Shown: positions 2,406-35,362 of the stretch, piece by piece
Layout of the letters: each line of letters starts with the position of its first letter
How positions within the stretch are numbered: the stretch's first letter is position 1
Position numbers and translations under genes: made by a program
The notes under the pieces: model-generated
What the model was told of the DNA's origin: nothing
The model's database searches: none
The model's input: the letters and a program-made list of their open reading frames with translations, nothing else
NCBI GenBank assembly: GCA_023247915.1
Contig: JAHFFN010000005.1
Span: 1-58,731, forward strand
DNA: 58,731 nt
From: Candidatus Omnitrophota bacterium
GTDB taxonomy: Bacteria; Omnitrophota; Gorgyraeia; 2-02-FULL-51-18
Direction of reading: 5' to 3'

Positions 2406-2453
2406 CCCTAATTAATCCCATCACTAACGTCATTTTTTAACGATTTTACGTCA

Positions 2454-2483
2454 TTGACACTGTAAGTCCTTGTTTGGTAATAT
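2454..2483 (+). promoter_or_regulatory. Sigma-70 type promoter for the HU gene
   Basis: A perfect -35 box TTGACA (2454-2459) and a good -10 box TAATAT (2478-2483) are separated by 18 bases. They lie in the gap between dnaE and the HU gene, 33 bases before its start codon, so HU appears to have its own promoter. Confidence 0.6.
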
Positions 2484-2515
2484 CATACGGTAAGTCTCTG
2501 CCTAGGAGGACTGGA

Positions 2516-2794
2516 ATGGCCATTACAAAAAAAGACATTGTGTTGAAAATTTCGACCGAAACGAACATCAAGCAAATTGATGTAAAGCGTGTTGTACAAA
2601 GCATGTTAGATAAAGTTACCGAGTTTTTGGCGGCAGGCCAAACGGTCGAATTGAGAAATTTTGGGATTTTCAAAATCAAATCCAGACGCGGTCGCTTGGG
2701 TCGCAATCCCCGCACCGGACAAGAAGTTCCTGTTCCTCCCAAAAAAGTCGTCATTTTCAAGCCCGGCCTCATCATGAAGAGGGACGTGAAATAG
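2516..2794 (+). CDS. hup: HU/IHF family DNA-binding protein
   Basis: This is a 92-residue histone-like protein that binds and bends DNA as a dimer and compacts the nucleoid. The HU fold is clear: the N-terminal helices begin AITKKDIVLKIS, followed by VELRNFGIFKIKSRRGRLGRNPRTGQEV, the conserved strand and the beta-arm with its RNPRTG signature, and then the FKPG segment at the C-terminus. The ATG at 2516 is chosen because a strong ribosome-binding site (AGGAGGA, 2504-2510) precedes it; the frame is open further upstream, but without a ribosome site and within the promoter. HU and IHF subunits cannot be told apart from sequence alone. Confidence 0.93.
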   Translation: MAITKKDIVLKISTETNIKQIDVKRVVQSMLDKVTEFLAAGQTVELRNFGIFKIKSRRGRLGRNPRTGQEVPVPPKKVVIFKPGLIMKRDVK

Positions 2795-2804
2795 ACGTTA
2801 CCCC

Positions 2805-14410: not shown

Positions 14411-14483
14411 GCCCCGGTAGCTCAATTGGATAGAGCACAGGTTTCCTAAACCTGCCATGGCCGTTCGATTCGGCCCTGGGGCA
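14411..14483 (+). tRNA. tRNA-Arg (CCU)
   Basis: A complete cloverleaf can be drawn: the acceptor arm GCCCCGG pairs with CTGGGGC (one G-U), the D-arm contains GCTCAATTGGATAGAGC, the anticodon stem CAGGT/ACCTG encloses the loop TTCCTAA with anticodon CCT, and the T-arm is GGCCG-TTCGATT-CGGCC. Discriminator base is A; CCA is not encoded. It lies 10 bases after the sigma gene and may share its transcript. Confidence 0.93.
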
Positions 14484-14555
14484 CGATTTTTTCAGCCCTA
14501 CTCATAAAAGCTTAATTTTAATCAAACTTTAATAAATCATTATCAAACTGTCTTC

Positions 14556-14662: not shown

Positions 14663-16387
14663 TTGAGAAAAACGAACAAGTTTTTGAAGGTTGTTTCGTC
14701 GCTTTTGGTGTATACCTTTATCTGCGAACAGCTGGCGTTCGCCAATCCTGATCTTTCCGCGATTAAGCTCGATTTATTTGCCAAGCCTAAAGTTGATTTG
14801 GGTATCCCCGAATCCGTTGCCACCGTCGAAGATGCCTTTGTGGGAACGGGATCTCCCAAGACCATTTATCTTATTCAAGACGCCCACACCAACACCTCCG
14901 GGCAGTTCAATGTCGCCAAAACTCTCGACCTTCTTTTTCAAAAAAATAAACAATTAAAATACGTTTTTCTCGAAGCCGGTCAAGGCGACGAATCGCTTTC
15001 TTTCTTAAGACAATATGCCAGTCTCGAAAAAAGAAAGCAGGCCTCCGAAGCTTTCTTGAGACAGGGGAAACTTCAGGGCTCTGAATACTTTGACCTGATC
15101 TCCGACAAACATCTTGTCCTGTGGGGCGTCGAAAACCTCAAGCTTTACGCCCAATCCGTCGAAGCTTATAAGGAAGTCGCCAACAATCGCGAGAAGTTTG
15201 AAGACTACCTCAAAAAGATCGATGTCACCGTCGATACGCTAAAGCCTCGTATCCTGAATCCCGCGCTAATGGCTTTTGACGCCAAGTATCAAAAATTTGC
15301 CAAACAAGAAATTTCTCTGACGGATTATTTTGCGATATTAGACGAGCAAGCTACCCACTTGCAGATTTCATTAGAAAAATACCCGCATTTCCAAAAGCTT
15401 TCCAAGCTTAAAAAACTTGAAGAAGAGATCGATTTCCAAAAAGCCAATGAAGAACAGGTCAAGGCTATTCAATCGTTAGATGCCAAGACTCAAGCCGAAC
15501 TTCTCGAAGCCTCCAAGGATAATTCCGCGTTAAGGCTGAAAGGGGAAAACAAAGAAAATAGAGCTTTCCACGCGCTTCTTGAAGAGAGGTTGAAAGGACT
15601 CCAGGCGTCCTGCCCTGAATTAAATAAATATTTTAACTACCTGAAAGAAGCCAACAAGATCGAACCTCGGCAGATTCTCCAAGAACAGAAAGATCTTGAA
15701 AAAGAAATCCTGGGGGCGTTGATCGTTACCGCCGATGAAGAAAGCCTACTCAAAGCCTCACGGAATCTCGAAACCCTGAAAAAACTTTTAAAACTGACTC
15801 TTACTCCCGAAGAGTGGGACGAGTACCAGAAAAACAAAACCTCTTTTGATGTCACCCGGATGACGGGCTTCCTTAATAAGAAGATTATGGACTTTGAAAC
15901 TTATTATGAGCGCGCGCTTTTCCTAGAAGAGGGGTATGAACCGATAGTCCAAAAAGCCGAAGAATTTTACTCGCTCACGTATCAACGCGACCAAGAGTTC
16001 ATCCAAAATCTCCAAACCAAAATGGACACCGAAGGCCAAAAAGAAGCCGTCCTCATTACCGGCGGTTTTCATAGCCCCAACCTTAAGTCCCTTTTGAAAC
16101 AAAAAAATATCTCTTTCGTTAATCTGACACCTCAAGTTCTCCAAGAAACCAATCAGAAACGTTATGAGGAGATTTTGTTGGGTCAAGTTGAGAGCCTTGA
16201 GAAATCCTTTGTCTCTCAAAATAGAATGTCTCCTTCCCGCGGGATCGCGACCCACATGGATCCTATACGCGTGCCAGCAGAAAGGGCTGTATTTGCAGTT
16301 GGGTTAGGGATAAAGAGTGATTCTACCGTCTTAAAAATATTAGGAGATCGGCAACAAAGATTGGCAGCAGGCTTGCTTGGCTTCTCT
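14663..16387 (+). other. Module 1 of giant protein: secreted N-terminal domain, ChaN/TraB-like pattern
   Basis: Residues 1-575, before the first linker. After the signal peptide, the pattern KTIYLIQDAHTN (near 68-79), then VFLEAGQGDES, then after a helical region VLITGGFHSPNL (near 467-478) recalls the layout of the ChaN/TraB/EreA-like superfamily: a strand with a conserved acidic/His turn, a Glu after a second strand and a late GxH. The middle is helical and charged. The resemblance is by eye and the activity is unknown. It is the longest module apart from the hydrolase and isomerase modules and may be the original gene to which the others were added. Confidence 0.4.
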
Positions 16388-19300
16388 GGTGCTCGATTGT
16401 CCTCAAGCTTGAGCGATTCGCTTGTTGAATTTGTAAAATTAAATGGTTTTGAAGCAGTGCTCAATGCGTTTCTCGAAACGATCCCTAGCACGCCGGAAAT
16501 GACATTCCCGACAGTGAGATTCCTGAAAGTGAGTAGCGCAGAAACACCAGGTAAAATAGACTTCAGTTACTCTCTTGGAGATCCTCTTTTTACTGAAGCC
16601 CTGAGAGGCAACAAGCCCTTTTCCTTTAACAAAGAATTTAATTTGAGAACAGCAGAAGGTTTGAAGAGATTTTTTAAAGAAATTAACCGCAAGCCTGACG
16701 ATTTTTATTCTTGGCTAATAGGGCATCGTTACGAAGGTGTGTTCGACACAGGATTTATAGCTGCACTGATTAATCAGGCTAAGTCCGAGGAAAAATTAAA
16801 TGTGCGTGCAGGCAAGGGAGTCGAAAAAAATTCCGTTCTATATTTTGATGGCAAAAAAAACCAAAAAAATCCTCGGTTTGATATCTCCGATCCTGATGAG
16901 TTGCTTCGGCTGATGATGGCAACCGGAGTGACTTTTGAGGATCTTGAGGTTCAGAGAGCCATTCACTACGACAGGAGTTCGGGAGAGCCGAATAATGCAG
17001 CTGAAGAAGGGTGGGATGATTGGAATTTTAGCTCTCCGAATTCTCCAGTCTACAGAGGTTCCCCTGAAGTGGCGGCTCCCCTTATCGGCGCCCGCCTGGG
17101 GGTGATTCAAGATGCCCAGGAAGATATCACAAGAGCGCTTGGTCGTCGTGTGCGCATAGCAGCGGCCAGTAACTTTATGGCATCGGCTGAGTTTGCAGTA
17201 GAGCATACGAGTGATTTTATTTTTAAGAGGAATCTTGTTGAATTAGTCAGGACGGCTAAAGATGCACGTCTAGAATTAGTAGTTTTGCCGCGAGACCTTA
17301 CACACAATGTTGATTATTATGCAAACCACGTTGAGGTGCCCGTTCAATATGTTGCTAATAAACGGGTAGCTGTCAAAAATATCGTATTTTATGCCGAAGA
17401 AGACACTGGCTCGAAAGTTATTAGCGTAGAAACGAAAGTGGGAAGTTTTGTTGTGCCTAACCGCGTTTCCACATGGGAAGACAATGGCACGCTTTTGGTC
17501 AATATCGGATCCTCAAAGTCTCCCAAAAAATTAGAAGAAATAGAAAAGGTTCTCATAAAGGTTTTATTAGTAGACACAAAAAGCTCAAGAAAAGACGGTG
17601 CTCGCCTGTCAAAAACTTCAGACCTAACAGAGCCTCTCGCTGTGTGGGGTCAATTAATGGGAAATCCGGAATTTACGAAAGAATATCAAATAGTTCAGGA
17701 GGGCGGAACTCTTGTCCTTAAAACCAAATCAGGTAAAACACTTTCGCAAAAAGGAATCGCTGATCTGGGAACCCACTCCGCATGGGAGGAGTTCTTAAAG
17801 CCCACGCTTGGCGCCCGACTGGCTGATAAGTTTGGACTCCAATGGCATGACCTTCAAGGAATGGGTGGGTTGACGCTAGTAATTCATTTACGAGTTATTG
17901 TTAGTAATCAGGGGGACTATCCAAAATTCATAGTTGATGAAGCTAGAAAATTGATTGACGATCTTCGTGGTACAGGGGGGACGGCTCCGAATTATCATAT
18001 TTATGTTGAGCGCGCCAGATACTTGATGGAGGCCGTCAGGCTTTTGCGTGTTTTAGAGGCTATTATCCCTACAGCTGATTCGGAAATGGCTGCGGAAATG
18101 GCTGCCGGTTTAAGAAATGAATCGGGCGATAATTTTGCAACTTACAAAATACGAGTGGTGCAGGCTCGAGATTGGATCGGCGCCCGGCTGGCGAGAGCTC
18201 CAAAAGCTCTGAAAGATCCAAAAGCTTCGCGTCGGAAATTTGTTGCGGCTCAGAGGGAGCTTCTTGTATGGGATACGGCGCAAACAGAAAGAGTTTTGAG
18301 TGTTTTAGAAAAAATCCAAAGATCGAGATCTAAAAAACCCTCGAAAGTGGATATAGACGTAGTAATTTTGGCTTTGGCGGGCGACGAATGGATGCCTTTG
18401 ACAATGCTCGATTATCTTCACAAAAATCGTATGGATTTGACGGGCATTACGGCAGACCAAAGAGCTCGCCTAATCACCGCTCTAAAAAACCTTTCCCCAG
18501 GAAAAGCGCGCAGAGAAGTTTTAGCGAAGCTCGTTCGCCCCAAGATAAAAGCCAAAACTCCCAAGAGATATATATTGGATCATGGTGATCGTTTGATTGC
18601 TGCCCGGCTGTCAGGAGCCGCTTCTAAGCTACGCATCGCACTGGCTGGGGAGGATTTTGATGGCTCTGGCGAGGCTAATTTTGATCGTGGATTGTGGCTA
18701 ACCAATACGGGGGCTCAAGATACCTTAAATGGAATCATTTACTCTAATGAAAATTTTGATCCAAAGAGAAATGTTGTCGGGCATCGAGCCAATCTTCAGG
18801 TGGTATTAAATGGCAGTTCGCTTATTTTAAAATGGAACAATCAGACGGAGTACAAAGAGCGATTAATACGCAATTTACCGACTATACGAGAAATCCTGAT
18901 CCGCGTTTCCAAAGAGAACCGCCTTGTATTTGAGGACCAGACTCAAGGCGCCCGCCTCGCGGACAAACAGCCAGCTTCTCAGCGTACAGCACCTCTACCG
19001 GCTCGTATAGAATTTCACGACAAACTCCCGCCTGACCTGACGATAGGGAAACAAGTTGAGATTAAGTTGGATTCAGAATTTGGCGACAAGTTTAATGATC
19101 TTTGGGTAAGAGCGACTGTCGAAGGTGTCGAAGGGGAGAAGGTTCTGTTTCGGATTGCTTCGGGGGATGATGTCGATGCAACCCTTCGAGGTGTCCCAGT
19201 AAAAATTTATAATGAACGGACATTATCCACAGTTCGTCCGCTCGACGTTTTGGTGACGGATGCCCGGTCGTCCGGAGAGCCAGAAAAATTAACATGGATC

Positions 19301-22300
19301 GCGGAGTGGGAAACGCTTGGAAATTGGGGAGGGGTGAAGCGAGAGCTTTCGGCTATTGAGGATAAAGTTCTCCAAACTCATCTTAGAGGTAAAATCAACC
19401 GCCTTGTCAATATTCTAATCAGAAATGATCTTTTCTATTTTGCGCATCTAGACACGGCCATCCCAGTAGTGATTCAAAGGATGCAAGCGGATTCTTTTCA
19501 TTCATGGGAGCCTCTCATACGAGCCATCACGGCCGCTGAGTCTGGCCAAGACCCTTATCATATATTGATTAATGGCGCCCGGCTGGCAAAACCTCGTACT
19601 GCGTCCCGCGCTGTGCGTAAAACCTCAGATCTGACAGAGCCTCTCGCTATGTGGAGCCAGTTAATGGCAAATCCGGAATTTACGAAAGAATATCAAATAG
19701 TCCAGGAGGGTGGAACCCTTGTCCTTAAAACCAAATCAGGCGAAACGCTTTCGCAAAAAGGAATCGCTGATCTTGGAACCAACTCTGCATGGGAGTTGTT
19801 CTTAAAACCCACGCTTGGCGTCCGGTCGGAGACAAGAAAATATAGACTGATTAAGCGAATAGAAAGCGTTTTGCGTCTCAAAAGAAATTCAAAAATCAAG
19901 GAGCCGTATAGCGCTTCTGAAATCGAAGAACTCATCAAAGCTTTAAGACCCCTGGATGGTGTTGATTGGCGCCCCTCGATATCCGCTGCCGATAAGCTTG
20001 GAGATGCCAAATCTTCCAAAGCCATTGAGCCTCTGATGAAGTGGCTTGAGGATGGACGTGTTTATGATTTTCAAAAAGCCGTCGCTGAAGCTCTTGGTAA
20101 AATTGGCTCTGCCAAAGCCGTCCCTGCTCTGATTAAAACCTTTAATTTGCGTGACGATAGACGACCCCAGAAGGCTTACATCGCGGCTCTTGGGGATATT
20201 GGATCTATTAAGGCCGCACCATTTTTAATCAGAGTTTTGAAAAGTGGCGAAACCGAAGTCATTCGTCAAGCAGCCAAAAAAGCTTTGCGTCAGATCCATG
20301 AAAATTTAAAAAGGCGTGGAGCCCGACTAGCACTAACAAGCGACGTGATTAAGGGGGCAGTGGCGGCATTTAAAGAGGTCGCATTGTCTTCTAGATATAA
20401 GGATAGAAAAGATAGGGATATTATTGAGCAGAATTTAAATCGAGTGTTGCGAGCCAATCTTAGCATTACTTCGCGCGTAGAAGTGTTGGGTCAGCTTAAT
20501 TCGGCTGTGAATTGCTATCGAAGCCTCTCCCAGAAGCCAGATGCGGGAGCCCTTAGGAGAATTGACGATATTATTAATCAAATTTCTCGGGCGCAAGAGG
20601 CCTGGCAAGTTGAGCGGAGAGCCAAAAAAGCGCAGATCCGGAAATGGATGAAACAGATTAGAGTGGTTCTGACGGATAGTTTCGTTGAAGATATTGACGA
20701 CGATATATACCTACTGCTAGAAGAAAAAAAGAGCACTCAGGGATGGTCTGACCGTGAAAGTGTCGCTCATCAATTAGCTGACACCAAGTCTCTAAAAGTT
20801 GTTAAAGCTCTGAGCAAGTCATTATTGAATGATAGAGTGGCGAGAGTGCGCATTGCCGCCGCTAATTCTCTGGCGAATATCGGCTTCTCAGAGGCGATCC
20901 CCTCATTAATTAAAGCCTTGAAAGACGAAGATAAAGGGGTGCGCAATCAGGTTGTGCAGGCTCTGGGCGCGATTAAATCCCTTCGAGTGATTCGATCTCT
21001 GATCCCTATTTTGAAAGACAAAGATATCGAAGTTGTCCACTCTGTTGTTAAAGCGCTCGGCGATCTAGGATCTCCCAAAGCTGTCCCTGCTTTAATTGAA
21101 GTTTTGAAGCATGAGAACGAGGAGATCCGGGGGGAGGCTATTAAAGCTTTGGGGAATATTGGTTCTCCAGAAGCAATCCCGGCTTTGATCGAGTTACACG
21201 GAAAGGATGCCCATAGCGCTCCCATTATCGAGAAAGCCTTGGTCAGGATTTATAATAAAATGGATGGTTCTGCGGGGGCAAGACTGGCGAGTAAATTCAC
21301 CGCCGTGCCGTCGATGCTTGCTTTGACGCAGCTTCGTTTGTCCGAAACATCAAAAATGTCTTTCACTCCTCAGGGGATGCCCGAAGTTTTTGTGAATTAT
21401 GCCTATGTTGAAGATGCGGATCGATCTAATTTTACGGATCTCATTCAGGCCATTGCACCCGGCCTTATCAGTAAAGATCAAATTTCTTCGATTCGAGGCG
21501 CCGGAGTACTTTTTGCCGACGATACTCCTGATCGAAATTTGGGCTTAGGAGTTTTCTCTGCTTTAACATTTGTTGTGGATGGAGAACGTTATCTTGTTAC
21601 TTTATTCAAAAAAGACGATTTGTCGAAGAAAGCGCGTCTTGAGAAGATTACGCGCGCCTACTGGCAATTCATGTACGATCGGCCCGAATTAAGCACACAA
21701 GAGACGGAGCCTGTGTCGGTCACGGTCGCAAAAACAGAGGGTGATTGGAAAGCCGGCACTTTTAGAATTTGGCCCCAACAAAAAGGCGCTACTGCTGCCC
21801 GGCTGGCGGGTTCCCAGAAAAGAATGGATGCTATTGAGTATTCTATTAGGAGAGATCTGGAGCAGGTGGGCATTCATCACATTACTGATTTTAATCCCGA
21901 TCACCCTACGTCGCACGTGCTTGGAGTATTAAGGGATCTGTATCCTCTACAAAGTGGGGGCGTGGGTTATGCCTTAACTTCCGGAGAGGCTGATTCATGG
22001 GTGCGTCTAATGAATGTGCTTCGTTACGCAAATCAACACTTTAAGACCAATGAAATTTATATGGATATTCATTTTGACGCTCACGCAGTGAGGGCTTGGC
22101 TCAATGGCAAAGACCATCTTGTTGTTTCTATTAATTCGAATGCTGCCGGCCACTTCACGCTAGATTTTCATCCGAGGACGGATTTAAGAAAGCCTTTCTT
22201 GCAGGGACGCACCAGTCTTAGAGTTGACAGCGCCGGCCAGATCCACGAAGAAATCATCGGTGCCCGCCTGGCGGAATATGTTTCGCCGTTTGTGATTCAG

Positions 22301-28300: not shown

Positions 28301-31300
28301 GAAGGCGGTTGGAAATCTCGCGAGACAGGCCGCGCCAGTGAAGATTGGTTTGGAATTTACACCAATGAAAGAGAGCCCAAGCTTTTTGCGCGTCAGGGAG
28401 CTTTCACCGGATTGAAATGGGAAGATGGCAAAGTCCTACCATTCGAACAGCCGGCCGCTTTAAAGCCTTTTCCGACGCAACCTGTTTTCTTGAGAACGCG
28501 CACAGCTTCTACACAAACTCCTGCGGCTGATAGCTCCATTATTCAACTCGAAGGCTTCCAGACTTGGAGCGGCGCCGGAGCTTTTTCAACGTATAAAGAT
28601 ACCCGAGTTAATTTAACCGGATACAAAACAGTTCGCCTTACTTTTAATACTACCGACGCTGGCGCTGAATTTTATATTCGTCTTTTAGATCCCGCCGGCG
28701 CTTACGACTCCAACTCAGGATCTATGGGTCCATTCCGAGTGCCCAAAGCTTCTGATGTGAATCAGCCGATTACGATGGAAATAGGAATCACCGGAGGAAA
28801 TATCAAACAATTTTCAATCCACACAGGAACGGTTTGGGATAATTCAACACACCTTCCCAAAAGAAATCTAGTCCCCATTAAAGTAGAGTTTTTAAAAACA
28901 CCCCCAGCCAAAAAAACCGGCGGCGCGCGGCTGTCCAATCAAGATTCGAATATGGACGTTGCGTCTATAGCCAAGATATTTTTTGAGCGTGTGTTGACGC
29001 CTGAAAACAGAGTCAAGATCTCTCGGTTTTTAGCGGATCATTTTTCTTCGCCTTTTTCTTCTCAGCCCGAGCGCTTATCCTTCGAGCATTCTGGCTACCG
29101 ACTGGTTTTGACCTCGGAGCCGAGTGGTACTGAGGAATTCCCATTAACCGTTTTGATTGAAAAGAAAATAGGGTCTTTTAATGCGGATGAAGTTGGCGCG
29201 TTTGAAGCGTATAACTTTTTGTTTCATGAGAGAGCCAGCGGTCTTAAAACTTTCGAAAAACAACTTTTAGCGTCTCGCGATTTTTCCAAGCCTTTGAAAG
29301 TGCAGTTTAACATGATGCCATTCGCTGCTTATATTGATTCTAAAAAGCCCGACCGAATTAATTTCGTCATGGAGTACCGTCGTGTCCCCACTGGCGCGCG
29401 TTTGGCGGCACCCGAGGCGTACACAACTCAAGTTTTTAAAGCAAAAGGTTCGGACTTTGCACACAAAATTACGGTGACGAAATCTCCCGATGGAGTCTTA
29501 GCGATTGATCTGCAGACGGACTCTTTTGTTGGTTATACCCTGGTAGGGCATTTTTCTTCAAACTTTGAAAGACCGCTTGAAGTCGATCCTGCTTTTTTGA
29601 GAGAGTTGTCCACTGAGTTTTCTTTTGATCATGATATTCTGCGTAGAATCAGAGAAATGATGCAGGTCATAAAAGCACAAAACGTGGAATGGTTCGCGGA
29701 AACAATCAAAACAGCTCTTGAAACAGGAAGCATAGAATTATACCCCGGCATCTCTCACCACGATGCGGCTATGGCTATTCTAGAGCAACCGTTATTTACG
29801 AAAAATCAATTCATTGGGGAGCATTCTCAAAGTCTGAGCCATGCAGAGCGCACGATCCTGTCGCGTATTTACCAAAGACATGGCCAACTAGGGGGACGTA
29901 GGGCTGACATCGCTACTCATCAAGCCGCGCGTTTGGCGACGGCCGTCAGCATCGACGAGCTAAAGAAAACCGATCCAGAGATAGCAGCGGCACTGGAACG
30001 AAGAGGTGTCAAATTTGTTTACAATCATAGGGACAAGAACCATACCGTGGACGTTCTGCGGGCGATGAGAGAGCATGGAGATTCTCCGTCGTGGTTGCAT
30101 TTTCTTAGCATTCTCGACCAAGCGGCAACGCATAGCGGGCTGGATGCCGTTTATTTTGGTCCTACGGTTGAAAAAGATTATTTTGATGCTAGCCTTGAAA
30201 AATATTTTACGCCATCACCCAAGCTAATCACGCTTTCTTTTACAGGGAACACCCTTAATTTCAAAGCGCAGAATCTAGAACCTAAAAAACATCAAATTCT
30301 TTTAAGTTTAGGGGCAAACTCTGATTCTTTGGCATGGCAGTTGACTCGCAAAGGCTATTTCGTTACTCAAGCAACCGATTATCATTATAACCATCCCCAG
30401 CAGTATGCATCGCACTCTTACACGGATTATGATTATTTGGTAACGGACAAAGCAGCGATTGCTGAGCATGCCCGTTCTGTAGATTCCGCCTTGTCGGTGA
30501 TTCAAACGCCTGAGCCGGGCGTTTCCCTGCGGGATGATTCCGCTATTGTCGAAGAGATTAGTCGAAGGACCGAGCTTCGCTTTTTAGGATTTGATAATTT
30601 TAATCCTCCGCTTGTTCATGACAATGGCGTTCATCAGACGCTAAATAAAAATGAGCAGATAATCTATTTTGATGTGAATTTTGACCGCTCATTGACAGAG
30701 AAAGAGCTCAAAAGATTGAAGGTACAGCTTTATTATGAAGATCCGCAGGGAGATGGAAACCAATGGTTTTCCGAAGAAGCGATAGAGCCTCTTAATGCTG
30801 AAGACCCTCATGGTTCTTATCAGTTCTCTGTTGCCCTGCATCCCCGGGTACGTCAATATAAAGTCAGAGTTTCTTGGGACGGGGGATATGCGTGGCACTA
30901 TTTTAAACCTCAAAATATCCAAGTGCATTATGCTCCCTCCGCCGGCGCGCGTTTGGCGGATTCGATACCGTCAGTAAGTCGTCAGTATTCGCTCACAGCG
31001 GCGCAGGCGGATGCCATCAAAAGATGGTTAACGCCATACACAGGGCAGACCGCTCCAAGCGTCCATCACTTTGTGCATTATTTTTTACGGGATAATTACG
31101 GCTTCATTATTCCGGCACGCGATGCAGGCATCTTAAAGGAGGAGGCCACTGTCGAGGTGCCGAATCGATCGATTCGTATCAATGATCAAGATGGAATTAC
31201 ATTTGTCCAGATGAGCCTCTCCGGAGACGGCCGCACTTTAACGTTAAAGGCTCTCGCGAAGGAAAAAAATTCCTACGGAAAAGATTCCAATGGACTGTTG

Positions 31301-34300
31301 GAAATATTTAAAGGCTATATTTCTACTACAGTAGAAAGTGAATTACATCCTGTCGTTGCCGCGCGTTTGGCGGCGGAAAATCTCGATCAGGGGGATGTAA
31401 TTTATATGGGCGGAACCGGTCCGCGGATTGTGCTGAAAAATGACAATCTTAAACCCGTCAAACCGACTCACAGAATACAAACTTTGCTTGTAGACGAGCA
31501 TCATCTAAACACTCCTGAATGGGCCACGCTTGACTGGTTTGAATCTCATTTCGAAACCGCCGTGCGGTATATGCCGAATAGGTTTTTTAATGGCCAGGGA
31601 GAGCCCTCAATTTATCAAACAGCTTTATTTCAGGTCACCGAGGGTTCTTATGCAGGCATTTATCATGGCATGCTAATAAGCGATCGAGATCCTGAGATGG
31701 CCGAGATCTTGAGTTATGAGCCCACCCAGCACACTTTATTGCCTTTCGAAGGAAGATTGATTCAAGTTGAAAAATCTAAAGTTAGGTTTTTCCCTCACAA
31801 GTCTTTGATGGTCGATAACTCGAGTACCGCCGCGTCTCGTGCGTTGAAAAGATATATTGATGAGAAGACTAAAGAGTGGGGCGACAAGAAGCCTTCCAAG
31901 GTTAAAGCGGGTTGGGATAGAGTTCACATTGAATGGAATGACGGATCTTCGCATACTTGGGATCTGACGAAGGGTGGCGATTTGGAATCGATCGCGTATT
32001 GGTTAAAGGGTAATTTATCCGAGCTTGATTCTATGCGCGCGATGATTGCCGAGGCCATCCGAAATGCAGCCGATTTTACTCCAGAGAACATTACTCGGAG
32101 AGCCAGAGAAGTCATCGCCAATGTATTGCGTGAAAAAGGGGTGAGTATAGATCAAATTGCCTTAGACACAGATCTTGAAACGTTGGGATTAGATTCGATA
32201 GATCATGTGGGAATGGTGTTGGATCTGGACGAAGAATTTGAAATCGATATTCCCGACGCCGCTTCCGCAGAATTCAAAACCCTGTCGGACGTGGTGCGCT
32301 GCATTCAGCAAATCAAAGCGCCCGAAGCTCCCGCCGCGCGTTTGGCGGGAAATGAATCCTTGGTCGAAGAGGTCAGAGCTTTTGACGCGGCGGCTTTGAA
32401 TCCTACAATTTGGGATAAAAACACGGGTCTTGCTATCGTCAAGCCCGCTCAAACGATCAATGAATTTCCGGAACCCATGCGGCCATTTTTGAGTGCAGCG
32501 ACGATTCATGATGAACGAGGAAATTTTACCCCGGGGCAACTTGTCACTTCTTCTCTCCAAATGCCCTCAGCGATGAATACGCCTGGTCTGAAAGAGAAAA
32601 TTTTCGAAGAAGCTACGAGTTATGCCAATAAAATCCGCGCTGGCGTTGCCCAGTCGGGCGGTCAGCTCAAATACTTGCTCTGGGTGGGCATGGGCGGATC
32701 AATCGAAGACAAGTACGCGGCGCTTGCGACCGGCACCTTAAAAGGACAAGTTCACTTCTTCGGTCTCGATGACGTGGATCCCAGCACAATCCAGGAAATT
32801 TTTGACGAAATCGTTCTTCAGGAAGCGGCGGAGATGGGGATAGCCGCTATTGATTTTACCGATAAGCAGTCCACCGCTTATCAAACAGCACTCGCCAGCG
32901 GGTTGCGTAAAACGGCGGTGGTGGGACAGGCATTGGGCAAGACCTCGGTCGAACCTATTTTTAATATTGAAAAAGCACTGCTTCCTCAATTCCAAGCGTT
33001 TGGTCTAGCCACGGAAAATCATTTCTGGAAAATCACGATCCCAGGTTCTTTGTTGGATCTGGGTCTTTTGCAGGACAAACCGCAAAACAATATCCCGCAT
33101 CAATGGGGAGGCCAGTCCACGTCCGCCGGTCGCCACGATTATGTTACTTACGGCTTCCTGATTCCGTACATTCTTTCCGGCGGAAATCCCGAAGACTGGG
33201 CGAAGGGGCTCAATCTTACTCAAGAGGATAAGGTTCGAGCTTTTGAGGCGGCTGATTGGATGTTCGCGAATCAGCAGGCAGGTAGAAACAAAGTTGTGCT
33301 CGCATTTCCCGAAGAATGGCAAGGCCATTTCAACGACGACCCAACTTGGCTCGATCCGAGTCTCTGGTTTAAACAGCATCTCGAAGAGTCTCTTGGCAAA
33401 ACACCCTCTTTTATTTTAAAAATCGTAACGACACTCAACTTTTCTTTGGCAAGTTCTTGGAAAAAACCCGAAGATAAAACGGATCAGGTAGTGCTTGTGG
33501 TGAAAATCAATGGGCTTAAAAATTTATCCGATGCAAAAATCGCTAGCTTGAGAGAACGAGGCTATGAAGTGCATGTGCTCGATTTGAGTTCGGCTCAAGA
33601 GGGTGAAGCTTTGGCTCGTGCGATGCAAGTATTTAATTATGCCAAGTTCCGCTTGGCGATGAAAGCCGGACTCATTGGAGTTAACCAGCCTCCGGTCGAG
33701 TTTTACAAAGGAATCGTCCAGTGGATACGCGGCGAGAAAAATGATTACCCCAATCACGAAAAAGTGAAAGCAATTTTTGAAGCGTCCGGAACGCATGTAA
33801 TTGGTCAAAACGGTTTCAAAGTCAGCTGGGAAACTCTTGTGCGCTCGGGTGTTTTGAAGCCTGAGGAACTTGATCATGAGATCGCCAGCCTTGGGCTTGA
33901 CCGCAACAACCCCGCCGACGTGGCTGGCGCGATTTATCGGATTGCTTTACGAAAAATCGGCTCCGGCGCTTATGGTGAATACATGGTATTTGGCAATTTA
34001 AATCGGGGTCACGACGCTAAAAATTTGAGAGACTTGCTGAGTGACCCGCTCTCCAGCGTCCAACGTTTGTGGCGGGAGGATCTTCATAGTTTTGCGGATA
34101 TCGGCAAAGGCCCTGGAGCCGGACATTCACATCACGCGATGAATATCCAAGGTCAGGCAATTGCCCTCCAGGTAGCGGTGAAGAGACATGCGGGGCTGCA
34201 GAAAGCTCTCGGTTTTGATACGCGTTATTCTACGGCTAATTCTTGGGCTAATAACTTAGCGCTGGCCGGTTTTAGTGTACCGCCGTCATCCAGCCCGAGC

Positions 34301-35362
34301 GATGAACTCAAGCTGAATCCCGAAGCCAACAAGGGTTGGGCGGTGCATCTTGAAATTCCAGAAATCGACGAGATATTAGATCTTGAGCAGTTTTTTGATC
34401 GTATGAAACAAGTGGTGTCCATGTCCGAGCCGACTGCTACTGCTGGTGCGCGTTTGGCGGGAAATGAGATACCACTTCGCGATGCGCTTAAAACAACATT
34501 TTTTACGGCAATCGCTATGCTGGTTTCTGGTAAGAAGGCATTTGCCTTGGAAGAGAATAATAAAATTCGCGTTTACAATTTGAATCGTCAAGAGGATAAA
34601 CTTCTTGTTGAAGTTGATGGCGGGGAAAGCTATACGCTCGACATTTCCTCAGGGGCTGTCAGTCAGGCTCACCAATCCCAAATCAAAGAAGCTGTCTTTA
34701 ATGAAGATTTGACAGACAAGCTCCAAACTATTTTATCGACCAATCGTGGTGCCGGATCGCCTGTGATCGTTGGCAGCGCTCCCGCGGTATTTCTTATCGA
34801 TCTAGGTGCTTTTTCGGACAAAGCAGAACTTGAAAATCTTCTTCGCCAGCAAGATGCCCGCCTAGATTCAAAATCAGCGGTGGCATTTTTGGGGGATGGG
34901 GAACAAGTGAAGGAAGCTCTGACATTTGTTAGCACGCTGAGACTTAAAAAGACTTCCCAATTTGTGGGGTCAGAATCTTTGAGCGAAGATCTGAAAGACG
35001 CTCCCCATATTCTATTGACCAAACAAGGTTATTTGACATTGGCCAATATCAACCATCACCGTCTTTTCCAAATCACTTTGCAGGCCAATCAAAGTCATCA
35101 AGCAGCGGTTTTTGCGTTTGGCGCTGTTCAGTCCATTATGGATCTGGTGGCTGAAGGAAATCTTGAAAAGGCCTTTGATCGTTTCCTCACCTTGGCTCCG
35201 CAATATCGCGGGCGGATGTCCTTCAAAGACTTTGTGGATGGCTATCTCAAGGGCAAAAAAGAGGTGATTGACCAATTTCCTCTGCCGGCCACTGTTTGGG
35301 CAAGCTTCCGGGATGCCATGCGTCTCAACCAGCTGGCTCGTACCGTCGAGTCGAACGCCTAA
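14663..35362 (+). CDS. Giant secreted mosaic protein with GARLA linkers (6,899 residues)
   Basis: This single open frame of 20.7 kb starts with TTG at 14663, preceded by AAGGAAGGGG. The N-terminus (residues 1-28: charged start, hydrophobic VVSSLLVYTFICEQ, then AFA-NP) is a Sec signal peptide. The chain is cut into about 30 modules of 35-700 residues by 29 copies of a [GA]-[AS]-R-L-[ASGT] linker. Recognised modules: HEAT repeats (about 1740-1885 and 2030-2190), a clan-A-like glycoside hydrolase plus beta-sandwich (4174-4753), an acyl-carrier domain (about 5810-5885) and a phosphoglucose-isomerase-like domain (5891-6594). Two modules occur twice. Hydrophobic membrane-type segments lie in modules beginning at 3149, 3721, 3908, 4174 and 6595. 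The remaining modules I do not recognise. The frame stays open throughout and amino-acid composition is protein-like, so it is a real gene. It may be a polyprotein processed at the linkers or a long surface fibre; neither is proven. Confidence 0.9.
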   Translation: MRKTNKFLKVVSSLLVYTFICEQLAFANPDLSAIKLDLFAKPKVDLGIPESVATVEDAFVGTGSPKTIYLIQDAHTNTSGQFNVAKTLDLLFQKNKQLKYVFLEAGQGDESLSFLRQYASLEKRKQASEAFLRQGKLQGSEYFDLISDKHLVLWGVENLKLYAQSVEAYKEVANNREKFEDYLKKIDVTVDTLKPRILNPALMAFDAKYQKFAKQEISLTDYFAILDEQATHLQISLEKYPHFQKLSKLKKLEEEIDFQKANEEQVKAIQSLDAKTQAELLEASKDNSALRLKGENKENRAFHALLEERLKGLQASCPELNKYFNYLKEANKIEPRQILQEQKDLEKEILGALIVTADEESLLKASRNLETLKKLLKLTLTPEEWDEYQKNKTSFDVTRMTGFLNKKIMDFETYYERALFLEEGYEPIVQKAEEFYSLTYQRDQEFIQNLQTKMDTEGQKEAVLITGGFHSPNLKSLLKQKNISFVNLTPQVLQETNQKRYEEILLGQVESLEKSFVSQNRMSPSRGIATHMDPIRVPAERAVFAVGLGIKSDSTVLKILGDRQQRLAAGLLGFSGARLSSSLSDSLVEFVKLNGFEAVLNAFLETIPSTPEMTFPTVRFLKVSSAETPGKIDFSYSLGDPLFTEALRGNKPFSFNKEFNLRTAEGLKRFFKEINRKPDDFYSWLIGHRYEGVFDTGFIAALINQAKSEEKLNVRAGKGVEKNSVLYFDGKKNQKNPRFDISDPDELLRLMMATGVTFEDLEVQRAIHYDRSSGEPNNAAEEGWDDWNFSSPNSPVYRGSPEVAAPLIGARLGVIQDAQEDITRALGRRVRIAAASNFMASAEFAVEHTSDFIFKRNLVELVRTAKDARLELVVLPRDLTHNVDYYANHVEVPVQYVANKRVAVKNIVFYAEEDTGSKVISVETKVGSFVVPNRVSTWEDNGTLLVNIGSSKSPKKLEEIEKVLIKVLLVDTKSSRKDGARLSKTSDLTEPLAVWGQLMGNPEFTKEYQIVQEGGTLVLKTKSGKTLSQKGIADLGTHSAWEEFLKPTLGARLADKFGLQWHDLQGMGGLTLVIHLRVIVSNQGDYPKFIVDEARKLIDDLRGTGGTAPNYHIYVERARYLMEAVRLLRVLEAIIPTADSEMAAEMAAGLRNESGDNFATYKIRVVQARDWIGARLARAPKALKDPKASRRKFVAAQRELLVWDTAQTERVLSVLEKIQRSRSKKPSKVDIDVVILALAGDEWMPLTMLDYLHKNRMDLTGITADQRARLITALKNLSPGKARREVLAKLVRPKIKAKTPKRYILDHGDRLIAARLSGAASKLRIALAGEDFDGSGEANFDRGLWLTNTGAQDTLNGIIYSNENFDPKRNVVGHRANLQVVLNGSSLILKWNNQTEYKERLIRNLPTIREILIRVSKENRLVFEDQTQGARLADKQPASQRTAPLPARIEFHDKLPPDLTIGKQVEIKLDSEFGDKFNDLWVRATVEGVEGEKVLFRIASGDDVDATLRGVPVKIYNERTLSTVRPLDVLVTDARSSGEPEKLTWIAEWETLGNWGGVKRELSAIEDKVLQTHLRGKINRLVNILIRNDLFYFAHLDTAIPVVIQRMQADSFHSWEPLIRAITAAESGQDPYHILINGARLAKPRTASRAVRKTSDLTEPLAMWSQLMANPEFTKEYQIVQEGGTLVLKTKSGETLSQKGIADLGTNSAWELFLKPTLGVRSETRKYRLIKRIESVLRLKRNSKIKEPYSASEIEELIKALRPLDGVDWRPSISAADKLGDAKSSKAIEPLMKWLEDGRVYDFQKAVAEALGKIGSAKAVPALIKTFNLRDDRRPQKAYIAALGDIGSIKAAPFLIRVLKSGETEVIRQAAKKALRQIHENLKRRGARLALTSDVIKGAVAAFKEVALSSRYKDRKDRDIIEQNLNRVLRANLSITSRVEVLGQLNSAVNCYRSLSQKPDAGALRRIDDIINQISRAQEAWQVERRAKKAQIRKWMKQIRVVLTDSFVEDIDDDIYLLLEEKKSTQGWSDRESVAHQLADTKSLKVVKALSKSLLNDRVARVRIAAANSLANIGFSEAIPSLIKALKDEDKGVRNQVVQALGAIKSLRVIRSLIPILKDKDIEVVHSVVKALGDLGSPKAVPALIEVLKHENEEIRGEAIKALGNIGSPEAIPALIELHGKDAHSAPIIEKALVRIYNKMDGSAGARLASKFTAVPSMLALTQLRLSETSKMSFTPQGMPEVFVNYAYVEDADRSNFTDLIQAIAPGLISKDQISSIRGAGVLFADDTPDRNLGLGVFSALTFVVDGERYLVTLFKKDDLSKKARLEKITRAYWQFMYDRPELSTQETEPVSVTVAKTEGDWKAGTFRIWPQQKGATAARLAGSQKRMDAIEYSIRRDLEQVGIHHITDFNPDHPTSHVLGVLRDLYPLQSGGVGYALTSGEADSWVRLMNVLRYANQHFKTNEIYMDIHFDAHAVRAWLNGKDHLVVSINSNAAGHFTLDFHPRTDLRKPFLQGRTSLRVDSAGQIHEEIIGARLAEYVSPFVIQPSFDLSNPTQVIASENLQRPPAAASGRRDFILYLVKGDGKFYIRLNKKEGVETGQFIIGLENLGEAFIRRYLFNDDGLNLSILSFSSPENNFIEFIYGDSYDAQQAAVMFKGILDSYHRSIVTPTGTHGQTDGPRDEEGARLSLKNSSEFVVRRNHRSQSSTSLSLPTPNSNSAARLSSSNIHVYTPEQFNSLVQNGLIKRGDIISYGSGGSMFFSDAIFARMALDKDGKRGTVVLILNGSADQRESEIKFREGMMFAASVDLMLKNQKLNARKDVEANRKKVKGSGIFKRKALYVRKTFFPSTVRNIHWGERRFFVQFVESRNNRFKITRESEYHEKYDIYEFIYKISIPPGKIRGIEDIHFLMSLLGDGFHDRRWGFYSNTGPWWRDDEEFIRWFSKIAKKIGTSASSPSPLTSSLGSEATNSGARLASFSKVLITDFLKDNSPLGKNVWIKINNAPTNVSWARHAEDAWMIHGHNGHIGTIPNIGLQPLTSRDVVAIERFWPIEMISDLLKRKPQKLLMVQSGAGKNYLVREDGLFLEVDANDVIQASWGQLQANALTDDFLGQLPQVKAWINGTFGSKKFWRQIAPHLTRLLKFNSLSGSRLAEDKGVEVEQLIAFSPKDQSITINSPLVAPADRTIHLFGDGETTFTLITSEVLAEQLNRWVPGFPKGVRERISFQPNPDLAEGVLILDSSREKGEERIGSLLLWDDLEDLAQDFAAYLNPFLKSRIPQFQENLFQRLFTSGYSRLIRQRFVIGSSVSMGSIWISFLAPSTLCRFVLMPMLENTNNKEAFGFIAYFAGVAIALHLFNRLSDKLAGSKSTKGARLAAGTLSREETKDAKSLAGEIASKTRVQLLGIQKKLKLLQGFDEEKGLTKKQESTTISIRKSAQKIESLSLFALLKEATIRPGQEVLMDTLSTRTGKELQSDPPQFDLKYTATIISVLAEDLLLTGEKRFLRGIRASVEKAVRIVSNLAAYASSAELTTNFKSVRSFKKKQFRIIDLSKYSAARLATLPLTQLRLSETSKMSATPQGMFDVLVKYAYVEDADRSNFAELIQAIAPDLIAKDKTSSIRGAGILFADDTPDQNLGLGAFSALTFLLDGKRYLITLFKKDDLSQKARLEKITRAYWQFMYDRPELSEREADPVSVTVAKTEGDWKAGTFRIWPQQKSVTAARLTGNNSKFIRTFLAALLIGVGGWFLSKSAKQETKSVSLKFNSWSTQAPVFYRYQAQQASSGKVMTRMASIKTSEKIILNASQKLRMMIRANQVNPQNKEEAITLTLIGTDAFGKPLKIYAGYMTFTSKGTYEAVFSLNELGPRVIHVNELLLMGVPVTSADDRSFIPDWIVKDEIVIEEAAVPGGARLAKRNQHFFVIWGSFIALLLLPLIPESSKKLASPAGLVENTNVSIDKIYSAFETISKKEKSLEEREKAVQFLIANIQFSSQRDEIVIQLISSFKDLSMNEIATLEHYVEILVKLRLTKSETEQALRSLEALQSKLAIHSTELTFARANEATLYVATSLLKRVEEAIATLSKKPAGARLGTGQKESLPFTKAQLVRIHSEGVAKLPRKDYIVDLAIDNQPTQIRANSLVTTLEQLQEGALYVIHALHVNHISGQISLGIHSVVAAARLSGSAMRAIYLSLTIMLSGVLQTVADTVQFAFDKGRTSVTVLVNGKPQPRSRLVGANYQPTEPGQHITHYQEGKIRELVAQLLPKNDPTLVALGLGEMGKNDLERMKKTGIYNIHLYQVPLEDKADIDAVKKILRRAHELNKDFYVSVGHWAGLWSQPGSPELSANTYQERMKVVDSVMNMVKLYAEEPWAGKWVVGVENNYYARGGAFAGTKSLPLRIGSEYYDFMVQLAVAIKWQERQLNTAAKPVYHPVVLSNGSLTESQAQIIKEMNEKWAKELNGELPVDAIGGTFYPGINFEGQKVSDNGIAEAFEHFVKLSWEIAGLPLVVVETGPWAQTVNSDEQVRWYGAAKPAFVNTGKFAGIDIFEFINEGGWKSRETGRASEDWFGIYTNEREPKLFARQGAFTGLKWEDGKVLPFEQPAALKPFPTQPVFLRTRTASTQTPAADSSIIQLEGFQTWSGAGAFSTYKDTRVNLTGYKTVRLTFNTTDAGAEFYIRLLDPAGAYDSNSGSMGPFRVPKASDVNQPITMEIGITGGNIKQFSIHTGTVWDNSTHLPKRNLVPIKVEFLKTPPAKKTGGARLSNQDSNMDVASIAKIFFERVLTPENRVKISRFLADHFSSPFSSQPERLSFEHSGYRLVLTSEPSGTEEFPLTVLIEKKIGSFNADEVGAFEAYNFLFHERASGLKTFEKQLLASRDFSKPLKVQFNMMPFAAYIDSKKPDRINFVMEYRRVPTGARLAAPEAYTTQVFKAKGSDFAHKITVTKSPDGVLAIDLQTDSFVGYTLVGHFSSNFERPLEVDPAFLRELSTEFSFDHDILRRIREMMQVIKAQNVEWFAETIKTALETGSIELYPGISHHDAAMAILEQPLFTKNQFIGEHSQSLSHAERTILSRIYQRHGQLGGRRADIATHQAARLATAVSIDELKKTDPEIAAALERRGVKFVYNHRDKNHTVDVLRAMREHGDSPSWLHFLSILDQAATHSGLDAVYFGPTVEKDYFDASLEKYFTPSPKLITLSFTGNTLNFKAQNLEPKKHQILLSLGANSDSLAWQLTRKGYFVTQATDYHYNHPQQYASHSYTDYDYLVTDKAAIAEHARSVDSALSVIQTPEPGVSLRDDSAIVEEISRRTELRFLGFDNFNPPLVHDNGVHQTLNKNEQIIYFDVNFDRSLTEKELKRLKVQLYYEDPQGDGNQWFSEEAIEPLNAEDPHGSYQFSVALHPRVRQYKVRVSWDGGYAWHYFKPQNIQVHYAPSAGARLADSIPSVSRQYSLTAAQADAIKRWLTPYTGQTAPSVHHFVHYFLRDNYGFIIPARDAGILKEEATVEVPNRSIRINDQDGITFVQMSLSGDGRTLTLKALAKEKNSYGKDSNGLLEIFKGYISTTVESELHPVVAARLAAENLDQGDVIYMGGTGPRIVLKNDNLKPVKPTHRIQTLLVDEHHLNTPEWATLDWFESHFETAVRYMPNRFFNGQGEPSIYQTALFQVTEGSYAGIYHGMLISDRDPEMAEILSYEPTQHTLLPFEGRLIQVEKSKVRFFPHKSLMVDNSSTAASRALKRYIDEKTKEWGDKKPSKVKAGWDRVHIEWNDGSSHTWDLTKGGDLESIAYWLKGNLSELDSMRAMIAEAIRNAADFTPENITRRAREVIANVLREKGVSIDQIALDTDLETLGLDSIDHVGMVLDLDEEFEIDIPDAASAEFKTLSDVVRCIQQIKAPEAPAARLAGNESLVEEVRAFDAAALNPTIWDKNTGLAIVKPAQTINEFPEPMRPFLSAATIHDERGNFTPGQLVTSSLQMPSAMNTPGLKEKIFEEATSYANKIRAGVAQSGGQLKYLLWVGMGGSIEDKYAALATGTLKGQVHFFGLDDVDPSTIQEIFDEIVLQEAAEMGIAAIDFTDKQSTAYQTALASGLRKTAVVGQALGKTSVEPIFNIEKALLPQFQAFGLATENHFWKITIPGSLLDLGLLQDKPQNNIPHQWGGQSTSAGRHDYVTYGFLIPYILSGGNPEDWAKGLNLTQEDKVRAFEAADWMFANQQAGRNKVVLAFPEEWQGHFNDDPTWLDPSLWFKQHLEESLGKTPSFILKIVTTLNFSLASSWKKPEDKTDQVVLVVKINGLKNLSDAKIASLRERGYEVHVLDLSSAQEGEALARAMQVFNYAKFRLAMKAGLIGVNQPPVEFYKGIVQWIRGEKNDYPNHEKVKAIFEASGTHVIGQNGFKVSWETLVRSGVLKPEELDHEIASLGLDRNNPADVAGAIYRIALRKIGSGAYGEYMVFGNLNRGHDAKNLRDLLSDPLSSVQRLWREDLHSFADIGKGPGAGHSHHAMNIQGQAIALQVAVKRHAGLQKALGFDTRYSTANSWANNLALAGFSVPPSSSPSDELKLNPEANKGWAVHLEIPEIDEILDLEQFFDRMKQVVSMSEPTATAGARLAGNEIPLRDALKTTFFTAIAMLVSGKKAFALEENNKIRVYNLNRQEDKLLVEVDGGESYTLDISSGAVSQAHQSQIKEAVFNEDLTDKLQTILSTNRGAGSPVIVGSAPAVFLIDLGAFSDKAELENLLRQQDARLDSKSAVAFLGDGEQVKEALTFVSTLRLKKTSQFVGSESLSEDLKDAPHILLTKQGYLTLANINHHRLFQITLQANQSHQAAVFAFGAVQSIMDLVAEGNLEKAFDRFLTLAPQYRGRMSFKDFVDGYLKGKKEVIDQFPLPATVWASFRDAMRLNQLARTVESNA
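17612..17821 (+). repeat. Duplicated module A, copy 1
   Basis: This segment codes for KTSDLTEPLAVWGQLMGNPE... ending at the next linker. It recurs at 19619-19828 with high DNA identity (differences mostly at third positions). The shared sequence includes the downstream linker but not the upstream one. Confidence 0.9.
19619..19828 (+). repeat. Duplicated module A, copy 2
   Basis: Copy of 17612-17821, 2,007 bases downstream and in the same frame. Its end linker has decayed from GARLA to GVRSE (19817-19831). Its upstream side reads GARLAKPRTASRAVR, not present at copy 1. Confidence 0.9.
19920..21250 (+). other. HEAT-repeat modules of giant protein
   Basis: Two adjacent modules hold PBS-lyase-type HEAT repeats. 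The first (about 19980-20310) has units such as AVAEALGKIGSAKAVPALIKTF and AYIAALGDIGSIKAAPFLIRVL. The second (about 20760-21200) has four to five units such as VVKALGDLGSPKAVPALIEVL and AIKALGNIGSPEAIPALIEL. HEAT repeats form a solenoid that binds proteins. A linker (GARLA, 20318) separates the two blocks, so one array may have been split or two were joined. Confidence 0.8.
21323..21808 (+). repeat. Duplicated module B, copy 1
   Basis: This segment codes for 162 residues from LTQLRLSETSKMSFTPQG to GTFRIWPQQKGATAARLA. The second copy is at 25352-25837, exactly the same length. No known domain was recognised; it looks like a compact alpha/beta fold with LFADDTPD and WQFMYDRPELS. Confidence 0.92.
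22739..22820 (+). repeat. Heptamer inverted element inside the giant gene (AGTTCGG type)
   Basis: Direct heptamers AGTTCGG, AGTTCGT, AGTTCGG occupy 22739-22759. Heptamers in the opposite orientation, CCCAACC, CCGAACT, CAAACTC, occupy 22798-22818. About 38 bases lie between. It fills nearly the whole 35-residue module between the linkers at 22715 and 22820, giving low-complexity protein. It has the same architecture as the intergenic element at 7685-7788. Confidence 0.75.
23525..23571 (+). repeat. Heptamer run plus small palindrome inside the giant gene
   Basis: Tandem heptamers TCTAGCC, CCTCACC, TCTAACC, TCTTCCC run from 23525 to 23552, followed by a hairpin TTGGTAGC-GAA-GCTACCAA (23553-23571). 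The linker GARLA begins five bases later, at 23576. The encoded stretch is Ser/Pro/Thr-rich and domain-less. It looks like an intergenic repeat now read as protein. Confidence 0.65.
25352..25837 (+). repeat. Duplicated module B, copy 2
   Basis: Copy of 21323-21808, 4,029 bases downstream and in frame, with only scattered substitutions and no length change. Similarity starts a few residues after the linker GARLA at 25328 and runs through the downstream linker at 25823. Confidence 0.92.
27182..28921 (+). other. Glycoside-hydrolase-like module with carbohydrate-binding-like domain
   Basis: Residues 4174-4753. Straight after the linker comes SAMRAIYLSLTIMLSGVLQ, like a signal peptide with its own Met. 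A TIM-barrel-like region follows with beta-strand motifs VALGLGEMG, GIYNIHLYQVPLE, FYVSVGHWAG, WVVGVENNYY (Glu4375, candidate acid/base) and LVVVETGPW (Glu4506, candidate nucleophile), then FAGIDIFEFINEGGWKS. Spacing of the two glutamates (131 residues) fits clan GH-A. About residues 4620-4745 form a beta-sandwich (VNLTGYKTVRLTFNTTDAGAEFYIRLLD) like a carbohydrate-binding module. Substrate cannot be named. Confidence 0.6.
32085..32332 (+). other. Acyl-carrier-protein domain inside giant protein
   Basis: Residues about 5808-5890 read as a complete ACP: TRRAREVIANVLREKGVSID, TDLETLGLDSIDHVGMVLDLDEEFEIDIPD, then FKTLSDVVRCIQQI. The phosphopantetheine serine is Ser5845 in LGLDSID. All four helices seem present. 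The domain ends just before the linker at 32333. No ketosynthase, acyltransferase or adenylation domain is seen in the protein, so its acyl group and partner are unknown. AcpS, which could modify it, is encoded at 43084. Confidence 0.8.
32333..34444 (+). other. Phosphoglucose-isomerase-like module of giant protein
   Basis: Residues 5891-6594. The pattern YLLWVGMGGSIEDKYAAL, then TAVVGQALGKTSVEP, FWKITIPGS, STSAGRHDYVTYGFLIPY and later GPGAGHSHHAMNIQGQAIAL follows the order of sugar-phosphate-isomerase (SIS) motifs in glucose-6-phosphate isomerase. The module is 704 residues, a full enzyme length. Whether catalytic residues are intact I cannot say. A cytosolic-type sugar isomerase within an exported chain is unusual. 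Confidence 0.55.

Follow-up and report, generated by a model that had tools for sequence, protein, structure and literature searches.

In viral polyproteins, a single open reading frame (ORF) yields many mature proteins by way of a short repeated cut site. MARTX-type toxins are autoprocessing multi-effector chains that carry RTX repeats and a cysteine protease domain. Here we describe a giant chain that may be handled in a comparable way. It is encoded in a 58,731-nucleotide stretch of DNA from a Candidatus Omnitrophota bacterium (assembly GCA_023247915.1, contig JAHFFN010000005.1), which we call the window and which is contig 63 (C63) of a 1.65-Mb draft genome. The predicted product has 6,899 residues and is punctuated by a pentapeptide linker, [GA][AS]RL[ASGT]. 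A Pfam scan of the whole chain at E values up to 1 returned HEAT and related repeats, PP-binding and otherwise weak matches. Unlike for MARTX toxins, the scan thus gave no match to RTX repeats or to the cysteine protease domain, and the identified modules look like enzymes, carrier and repeat domains. If the linker is a protease site, as we argue below, the chain is like a viral polyprotein, but it lies in a bacterial genome, has housekeeping neighbours and is accompanied by related chains. On the same condition it shares with MARTX toxins the form of a giant secreted chain of different modules that is processed into pieces (PMC6254334, available part).

Giant ORFs above 20 kb are common in Omnitrophota, with few annotated domains and poorly understood roles, and their functions have been called difficult to assess (Seymour et al. 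2023, PMC10066038, available part). The words linker, polyprotein, protease and signal peptide do not occur in the main text of that paper, and its available part describes no peptide punctuation. Nor is such a linker described in the available parts of PMC10066038, PMC11573180 and PMC6254334, or in the literature searched, which excluded preprints and most subscription papers. Among the matches listed, a search for GARLA gave no fitting protein by title, and a search for bacterial polyproteins gave no fitting title.

The giant ORF begins with TTG, closely preceded by the purine-rich stretch AAGGAAGGGG, and the linkers follow one another in its frame at intervals of 35 to 704 residues.

14663..35362, + strand, giant ORF, 6,899 aa, TTG start, open frame with no stop inside
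14663..14743, + strand, predicted Sec signal peptide, residues 1-27, ending ...QLAFA before NP, read by eye from the sequence
16388..16402, + strand, linker 1, GARLS
17087..17101, + strand, linker 2, GARLG
17597..17611, + strand, linker 3, GARLS
17810..17824, + strand, linker 4, GARLA
18179..18193, + strand, linker 5, GARLA
18599..18613, + strand, linker 6, AARLS
18947..18961, + strand, linker 7, GARLA
19574..19588, + strand, linker 8, GARLA
20318..20332, + strand, linker 9, GARLA
21275..21289, + strand, linker 10, GARLA
21794..21808, + strand, linker 11, AARLA
22259..22273, + strand, linker 12, GARLA
22715..22729, + strand, linker 13, GARLS
22820..22834, + strand, linker 14, AARLS
23576..23590, + strand, linker 15, GARLA
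24107..24121, + strand, linker 16, GSRLA
24776..24790, + strand, linker 17, GARLA
25328..25342, + strand, linker 18, AARLA
25823..25837, + strand, linker 19, AARLT, with a signal-like hydrophobic segment after it
26384..26398, + strand, linker 20, GARLA, with a signal-like hydrophobic segment after it
26915..26929, + strand, linker 21, GARLG
27182..27196, + strand, linker 22, AARLS
28922..28936, + strand, linker 23, GARLS
29393..29407, + strand, linker 24, GARLA, first of six consecutive linkers with the 12-nt word GCGCGTTTGGCG
29924..29938, + strand, linker 25, AARLA
30944..30958, + strand, linker 26, GARLA
31358..31372, + strand, linker 27, AARLA
32333..32347, + strand, linker 28, AARLA
34445..34459, + strand, linker 29, GARLA

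A reading made earlier from the sequence only had counted 29 in-frame copies in one frame where fewer than one was expected, and modules of very unequal size (35-700 residues). Both counts hold: there are 29 copies against 0.28 expected from the chain's own composition, and the commonest 3-mers of the chain are ARL (33), RLA (21) and GAR (19), with the next at 12.

The motif is not confined to the window chain. Below, G000 denotes this genome, G001 and so on other genomes, and C a contig. The first 576 residues of the chain match 13 places in this genome, which holds at least eight giants: on eight contigs a chain stays open for between 3,117 and 7,023 aa, in some cases truncated where the contig ends, and two further contigs have start fragments alone. 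The giant frames read amount to 126,288 bases, or about 7.6% of 1.65 Mb. Copies per chain number 29 in C63, 26 in C32, 23 in C11, 13 in C81, 10 each in C26, C66 and C8, and 5 in C57. Two contigs without the first domain, C35 and C46, have 4 and 8 copies and share 40 identical residues where their ends overlap; judging by eye from halves of a NagB-like sequence, C35 is probably the continuation of C66. The first domain was present in 41 of 59 genomes searched, this one included, and we read 28 long frames from 18 other genomes, picked for length and not at random. Strict linker copies were found in nine of ten other genomes of the same family or order, namely in all frames read of G001, G002, G005, G006, G007, G009, G010, G013 and G014 (1-29 each). 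G013 has one strict copy and otherwise GARMA. The tenth, G011, has mainly looser forms (GFRLA, GTRLA, GSRRA), with 1 and 0 strict copies in its two frames. In other families, seven frames had no strict copy and G028 had one. The linker is therefore a feature of one family and its order, and by these counts the linker-bearing giants stand against a wider background of giants with the same first domain.

The linker pentapeptide is under selection as a peptide. Ten giant frames of this genome hold 142 copies of [GA][AS]R[LM][ASGT]. A degenerate DNA pattern of the motif matched the whole genome 137 times (places listed for the first 100 of 137); the giants hold 96 sense matches, all in frame, and one antisense match, while the 40 matches outside giants are at the level of a reversed-pattern control (42). 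Arg and Leu each use all six codons, and only 1 of the 142 copies matches the 18-nt consensus exactly. One-residue variants at positions 1 to 5 numbered 13, 14, 31, 5 and 3, against 11.9, 11.0, 35.4, 15.5 and 5.6 from composition, and were likewise near or below the composition level in two further genome sets. Thus no stock of copies with a single decayed residue is visible, although the test is blind to copies decayed further, one of which is known (GVRSE). Since codons vary and one-residue variants are not in excess, selection acts on the peptide and a neutral scar is rejected; the option of a scar offered by the sequence-only reading falls in its purely neutral form. In a logo of 358 copies from eight genomes, position 1 is Gly (71%) or Ala (29%), position 2 Ala (97%), position 3 Arg (100%), position 4 Leu (94%) or Met (6%), and position 5 Ala (72%) or Ser (18%), shares that are bounded by the regular expression used to gather the copies. 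Around the same copies, Pro is enriched about 2-fold 2-4 residues before the linker, and aromatic residues are scarcer on both sides, with Tyr depleted on both. A trans-translation tag was considered as the origin of the linker and rejected, as the tag of this genome's tmRNA ends in LPLAA, unlike GARLA.

By homology, the linkers mark module borders. We compared giants of ten genomes using blind 600-residue tiles and kept 38 matches, leaving out G011, genomes beyond the family and order, N- and C-terminal domains, and low-complexity and self matches; the 38 still include the C35/C46 contig overlap and two or three matches at the C-terminus, which got past the filter. Of 67 usable homology ends, 15 had a linker no more than 8 residues away in each of the two partners, where 300 circular shifts gave a mean of 0.17 and a maximum of 2. 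When a linker lay in or beside a match, it was met by a linker of the partner in 20 of 28 cases (shift mean 0.34, maximum 2). Many matches have no linker at their ends; among them are several that reflect repeats within a single module and a few that are C-terminal or stem from contig overlap. Matches flanked by linkers on both sides reach down to 26-30% identity, which means that linkers persist longer than the module sequences do. A version of the test that took linkers into account (204 matches) was set aside because its queries had been cut at linkers. The structure model of the isomerase-like module described below agrees in placing both of its linkers outside the well-folded part, linker 29 in a stretch below 50 in confidence and linker 28 in a block averaging 57, with a short helix. 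In these tests, which include the model of one module, the linkers thus lie between modules, as had been proposed, and gave no sign of being buried within domains or random in relatives.

Judged by alignment, some modules of the giants are captured whole genes. The clearest in the window lies between linkers 28 and 29.

32348..34444, + strand, glucose-6-phosphate-isomerase-like module, equivalent to a whole free-standing gene by alignment and structure model

This module matches 13 proteins, the best at 38-39% identity over 97% of its length. Seven long free-standing relatives of 654-687 aa have Met starts and align end to end, so that the standalone homologues for which the sequence-only reading had called do exist. 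Their alignments begin anywhere from linker 28 itself to five residues after it and end about 1-8 residues before linker 29. Of the 73 columns that do not vary among 12 of the 13 relatives (one fragment omitted), the module keeps 68, and it is therefore under constraint. Its model (pLDDT 79) was matched by glucose-6-phosphate isomerases (PGI) with E values down to 1.3e-11, at TM-scores of 0.3-0.4 by query length. Two of the 13 relatives (P0079 and P0086) come from a eukaryote transcriptome collection, which makes a transfer between domains of life possible, in either direction.

A second whole gene, less an internal gap, stands between two looser linker forms in a G011 giant (L068:2363-3958; Pfam PGI, 8.8e-191). 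Aligned with the Vibrio cholerae enzyme (3hjb), the Ala of GFRLA adjoins the Met-Leu-Lys start, and the last aligned residue is five residues before SGGRSA. About 46 middle residues are missing and there is no cysteine. We presume that the missing stretch holds the phosphate-binding loop; the embedded enzyme may therefore be inactive. The Pfam PGI model matched in 14 of 22 genomes, and the only match in this genome is a 561-aa frame outside the giants. Among the 17 matches listed, those in giant frames are G011 C21 (two rows) and G006 C16. The giants are not the sole source of this essential enzyme, since an ordinary frame carries a further copy in both G011 and G006.

We favour, with about even confidence, the reading that the window chain is one of at least eight exported polyproteins and that [GA]AR[LM][AS] is likely a protease site freeing the modules after export. 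The Sec signal would export the whole chain, and either the N-terminal domain or some other protease of the envelope would then cut it at the linkers into separate proteins. Linkers would also be the places where new modules join, and would be copied as this happens. Rare cysteine suggests export of the whole chain, which it fits without proving: the giant frame has 5 cysteines in 6,904 residues, against 93 in 11,220 for 32 other ORFs hand-picked from the ORF list of the window. Cysteine across giant frames ranges from 0 to 0.57%. The isomerase-like module has none, against 6-11 in its seven close free-standing relatives; among distant relatives, four of five have 1-2. Whatever its use, one border-marking peptide turns giant chains into readable parts lists, makes gene capture traceable module by module, and provides a specific candidate cut site. 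If cleavage is real, this would be a bacterial polyprotein system that fills about 7.6% of one genome with eight members or more.

A candidate for the cutter is carried by the giants themselves.

14774..16192, + strand, N-terminal domain common to giants, predicted TIKI/Ere/ChaN-like fold, with D73, H75, E104 and H470

This domain is a possible relative of the TIKI/Ere/ChaN superfamily, which includes endopeptidases and which it resembles in its predicted fold (model pLDDT 85.5) and in its D/H/E/H pattern. The structural matches of highest Z were ChaN, HopBA1, EreC and relatives (Z 8.0-9.5); the same list held an unrelated-looking Tetrahymena chain (Z 8.1) and RRSP (Z 7.6). Foldseek alone gave no match to the model at 0.001; it is the coherence of the structure list, together with the residues, that supports the placement. 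In an alignment of the window with 55 of 78 first-domain hits, H75 and E104 are invariant, and D73 and H470 are kept in at least 90%. GGxH470 was present in 36 of the 36 frames that hold that part of the domain, and a narrow pattern found D-x-H in 28 of 32 frames with the start in hand. The TIKI superfamily has a catalytic set of 2His/2Glu (Glu-x-His, Glu, His), and RRSP, a sequence-specific endopeptidase of the TIKI family, requires Glu-3900, His-3902, Glu-3930 and His-4030 (PMC6254334, available part). The giants' D-x-H, D73-A-H75 in the window chain, is spaced as the Glu-x-His of RRSP, with 29 residues from His to the next Glu against 28. They differ in having Asp (D73) in place of Glu-3900, so that three of the four catalytic-type residues are kept, and in a long helical part between E157 and H470. 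With these RRSP-like residues and this predicted fold, the N-terminal domain could cut the linker. Hits with a named source are mostly from Omnitrophota/Omnitrophica, with one from Deltaproteobacteria and one from Theseobacter. The Arg-type cysteine proteases C11 and C14 were rejected as the cutter, being found in 0 and 1 of 59 genomes; these were the protease families searched.

Several observations weigh against parts of the reading of post-export cleavage. The N-terminal domain also occurs where no linker exists. Its superfamily includes non-proteases. Hydrophobic segments other than the N-terminal ones tend to follow linkers: of 114 in giants of eight genomes, 24 begin no more than 30 residues behind one, where 1,000 shifted controls gave a mean of 9.7 and a maximum of 21. 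An extended form of the cleavage reading strikes us as unlikely as a whole: the lineage would gather whole genes, possibly eukaryotic ones too, into exported chains at copied 18-nt joints, and the TIKI-fold N-terminal domain would cut GARLA, releasing enzymes and binding proteins outside.

It is fairly unlikely that the linker stays uncut and that a partner, or the cell surface, binds it as a recognised hinge or docking peptide in an exported protein built like beads on a string. Its conservation and border position would suit any recognised peptide, and the shared first domain and shared C-terminal end suggest a chain that is handled whole. The last residue is Ala (19) or Val (3) in 22 of 22 family and order frames uncut by contig ends (window 35351-35359), and the residue before it is mostly small too (QAA, QSA, SNA, SV). 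A conserved free end of this kind suggests that something reads it. A mere hinge, however, needs neither an invariant Arg nor a near-invariant Leu, and soluble whole enzymes as unreleased beads would have no evident purpose.

It is rather improbable that synthesis and cutting of the chain both take place in the cytoplasm, after which each module is sorted by its own signal. The excess of hydrophobic segments after linkers fits such a route, as does their charge. With the limit set at 40 residues, 27 segments have a mean charge of +2.37 before and +0.30 behind, and 22 of the 27 are more positive before, unlike the other 87 segments (+0.59 and +0.44); several look Tat- or Sec-like by eye. These signal-like flanks also make the single signal peptide of the sequence-only reading too simple. 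The post-linker segments may, however, be left over from captured genes, serve as anchors, or be functional signals of modules after release, and rare cysteine, both chain-wide and in the signal-less isomerase-like module, points to a place outside the cytoplasm. By eye, several modules of L018 and L019 (G000 C11) start after a linker with stretches like twin-arginine signals.

We think it very unlikely that the linker is a joint at the DNA level, an 18-nt word for in-frame gene insertion with the peptide as a by-product. There is nevertheless a memory in the DNA. Linker codons in this genome favour GGC/GCC-GCG-CGG-CTG/TTG-GCG, and GC content at third codon positions (GC3) is 0.70 in linkers against 0.43 in the 12 codons on each side. 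The codon consensus holds in five of six genomes tested, with a similar lean in G001, G002, G005 and G009, but no GC3 rise at the linkers of GC-rich G010. Conservation extends beyond the coding word to a CC in front of it and a G behind it, which would account for the frequent A, S or T before the linker and E, A, G or D after it. The last six linkers of the window chain have the 12-nt word GCGCGTTTGGCG in common. Neighbouring linkers agree in their codons more than they do when shuffled (0 of 2,000 shuffles); taken giant by giant, the shuffle fraction was below 0.02 in 4 of 21 and not in 17. The consensus can also be drawn with the arms CCGCC and GGCGG, a putative structure. Since the DNA word keeps a consensus, linkers are probably copied, from neighbours, when a module is added. 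However, one-residue variants are not in excess, and in this genome neither the other frames nor the opposite strand hold a copy, even when up to 3 mismatches are allowed; the peptide must therefore matter too. The idea of a standard junction, raised in the sequence-only reading, gains from the border position and the captured whole genes, and loses its neutral scar. The motif cannot be put down to composition or to a single repeated domain: some modules are duplicates, but the motif far exceeds its compositional expectation and recurs at the borders of different modules across genera.

The remaining features of the window chain show how mixed its content is.

17612..17809, + strand, short module KTSDLTEP..., with a second copy at about 19619-19822, 78% identical
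20333..21274, + strand, HEAT-repeat module; a related HEAT stretch precedes linker 9
21290..21793, + strand, duplicated module, copy 1, 78% identical to copy 2
25343..25822, + strand, duplicated module, copy 2, homology match to copy 1
27197..28921, + strand, large module without an assigned fold, sharing 30% identity with one in a G005 giant
32111..32305, + strand, acyl-carrier-protein-like domain (Pfam PP-binding, E 1.4e-8)
34550..35362, + strand, C-terminal domain ending in small residues, 42% identity to the end of a G005 giant

Unrelated functional units, namely HEAT, acyl-carrier-protein-like and isomerase-like modules, thus share one frame by Pfam, alignment and structure model. Above cut-offs, Pfam names only HEAT/Arm-type repeats and the acyl-carrier-protein-like domain, and most modules are nameless. 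The first KTSDLTEP copy ends in GARLA and the second in GVRSE, a decayed junction. The module at 27197-28921 and its G005 counterpart have a linker at the same starting border; no free-standing relative of this module was found. PDB sequence searches gave no usable E-value with the N-terminal domain, with two window modules or with a phosphomutase-like module of C32.

Some further observations concern the other giants. In L058 (G005 C5), residues from about 1558 to 3372 form diverged modules of about 260-400 residues, 25-30% mutually identical, with linkers at matching places. The G001 C59 frame (L052) starts at the contig start with GASLGMTS repeats, and a PTPA-rich stretch on G000 C66 (L016) has 10 copies of PTPA. 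P0001 is a short first-domain relative followed by AARLA and GARLA, with precomputed Pfam protein kinase domains.

The upstream neighbours of the giant ORF are ordinary: DNA polymerase III alpha, three aminoacyl-tRNA synthetases, a PEP-utilising enzyme, a sigma factor and tRNA-Arg. The tRNA-Arg (CCT; window 14411-14484) sits between the sigma factor gene and the giant ORF, and an Alginate_exp protein (window 35655-37121) lies directly 3' of it. The DNA polymerase III alpha domains are divided, possibly by a frameshift or an assembly error, between two overlapping frames, at window positions 1-471 and 459-2405.
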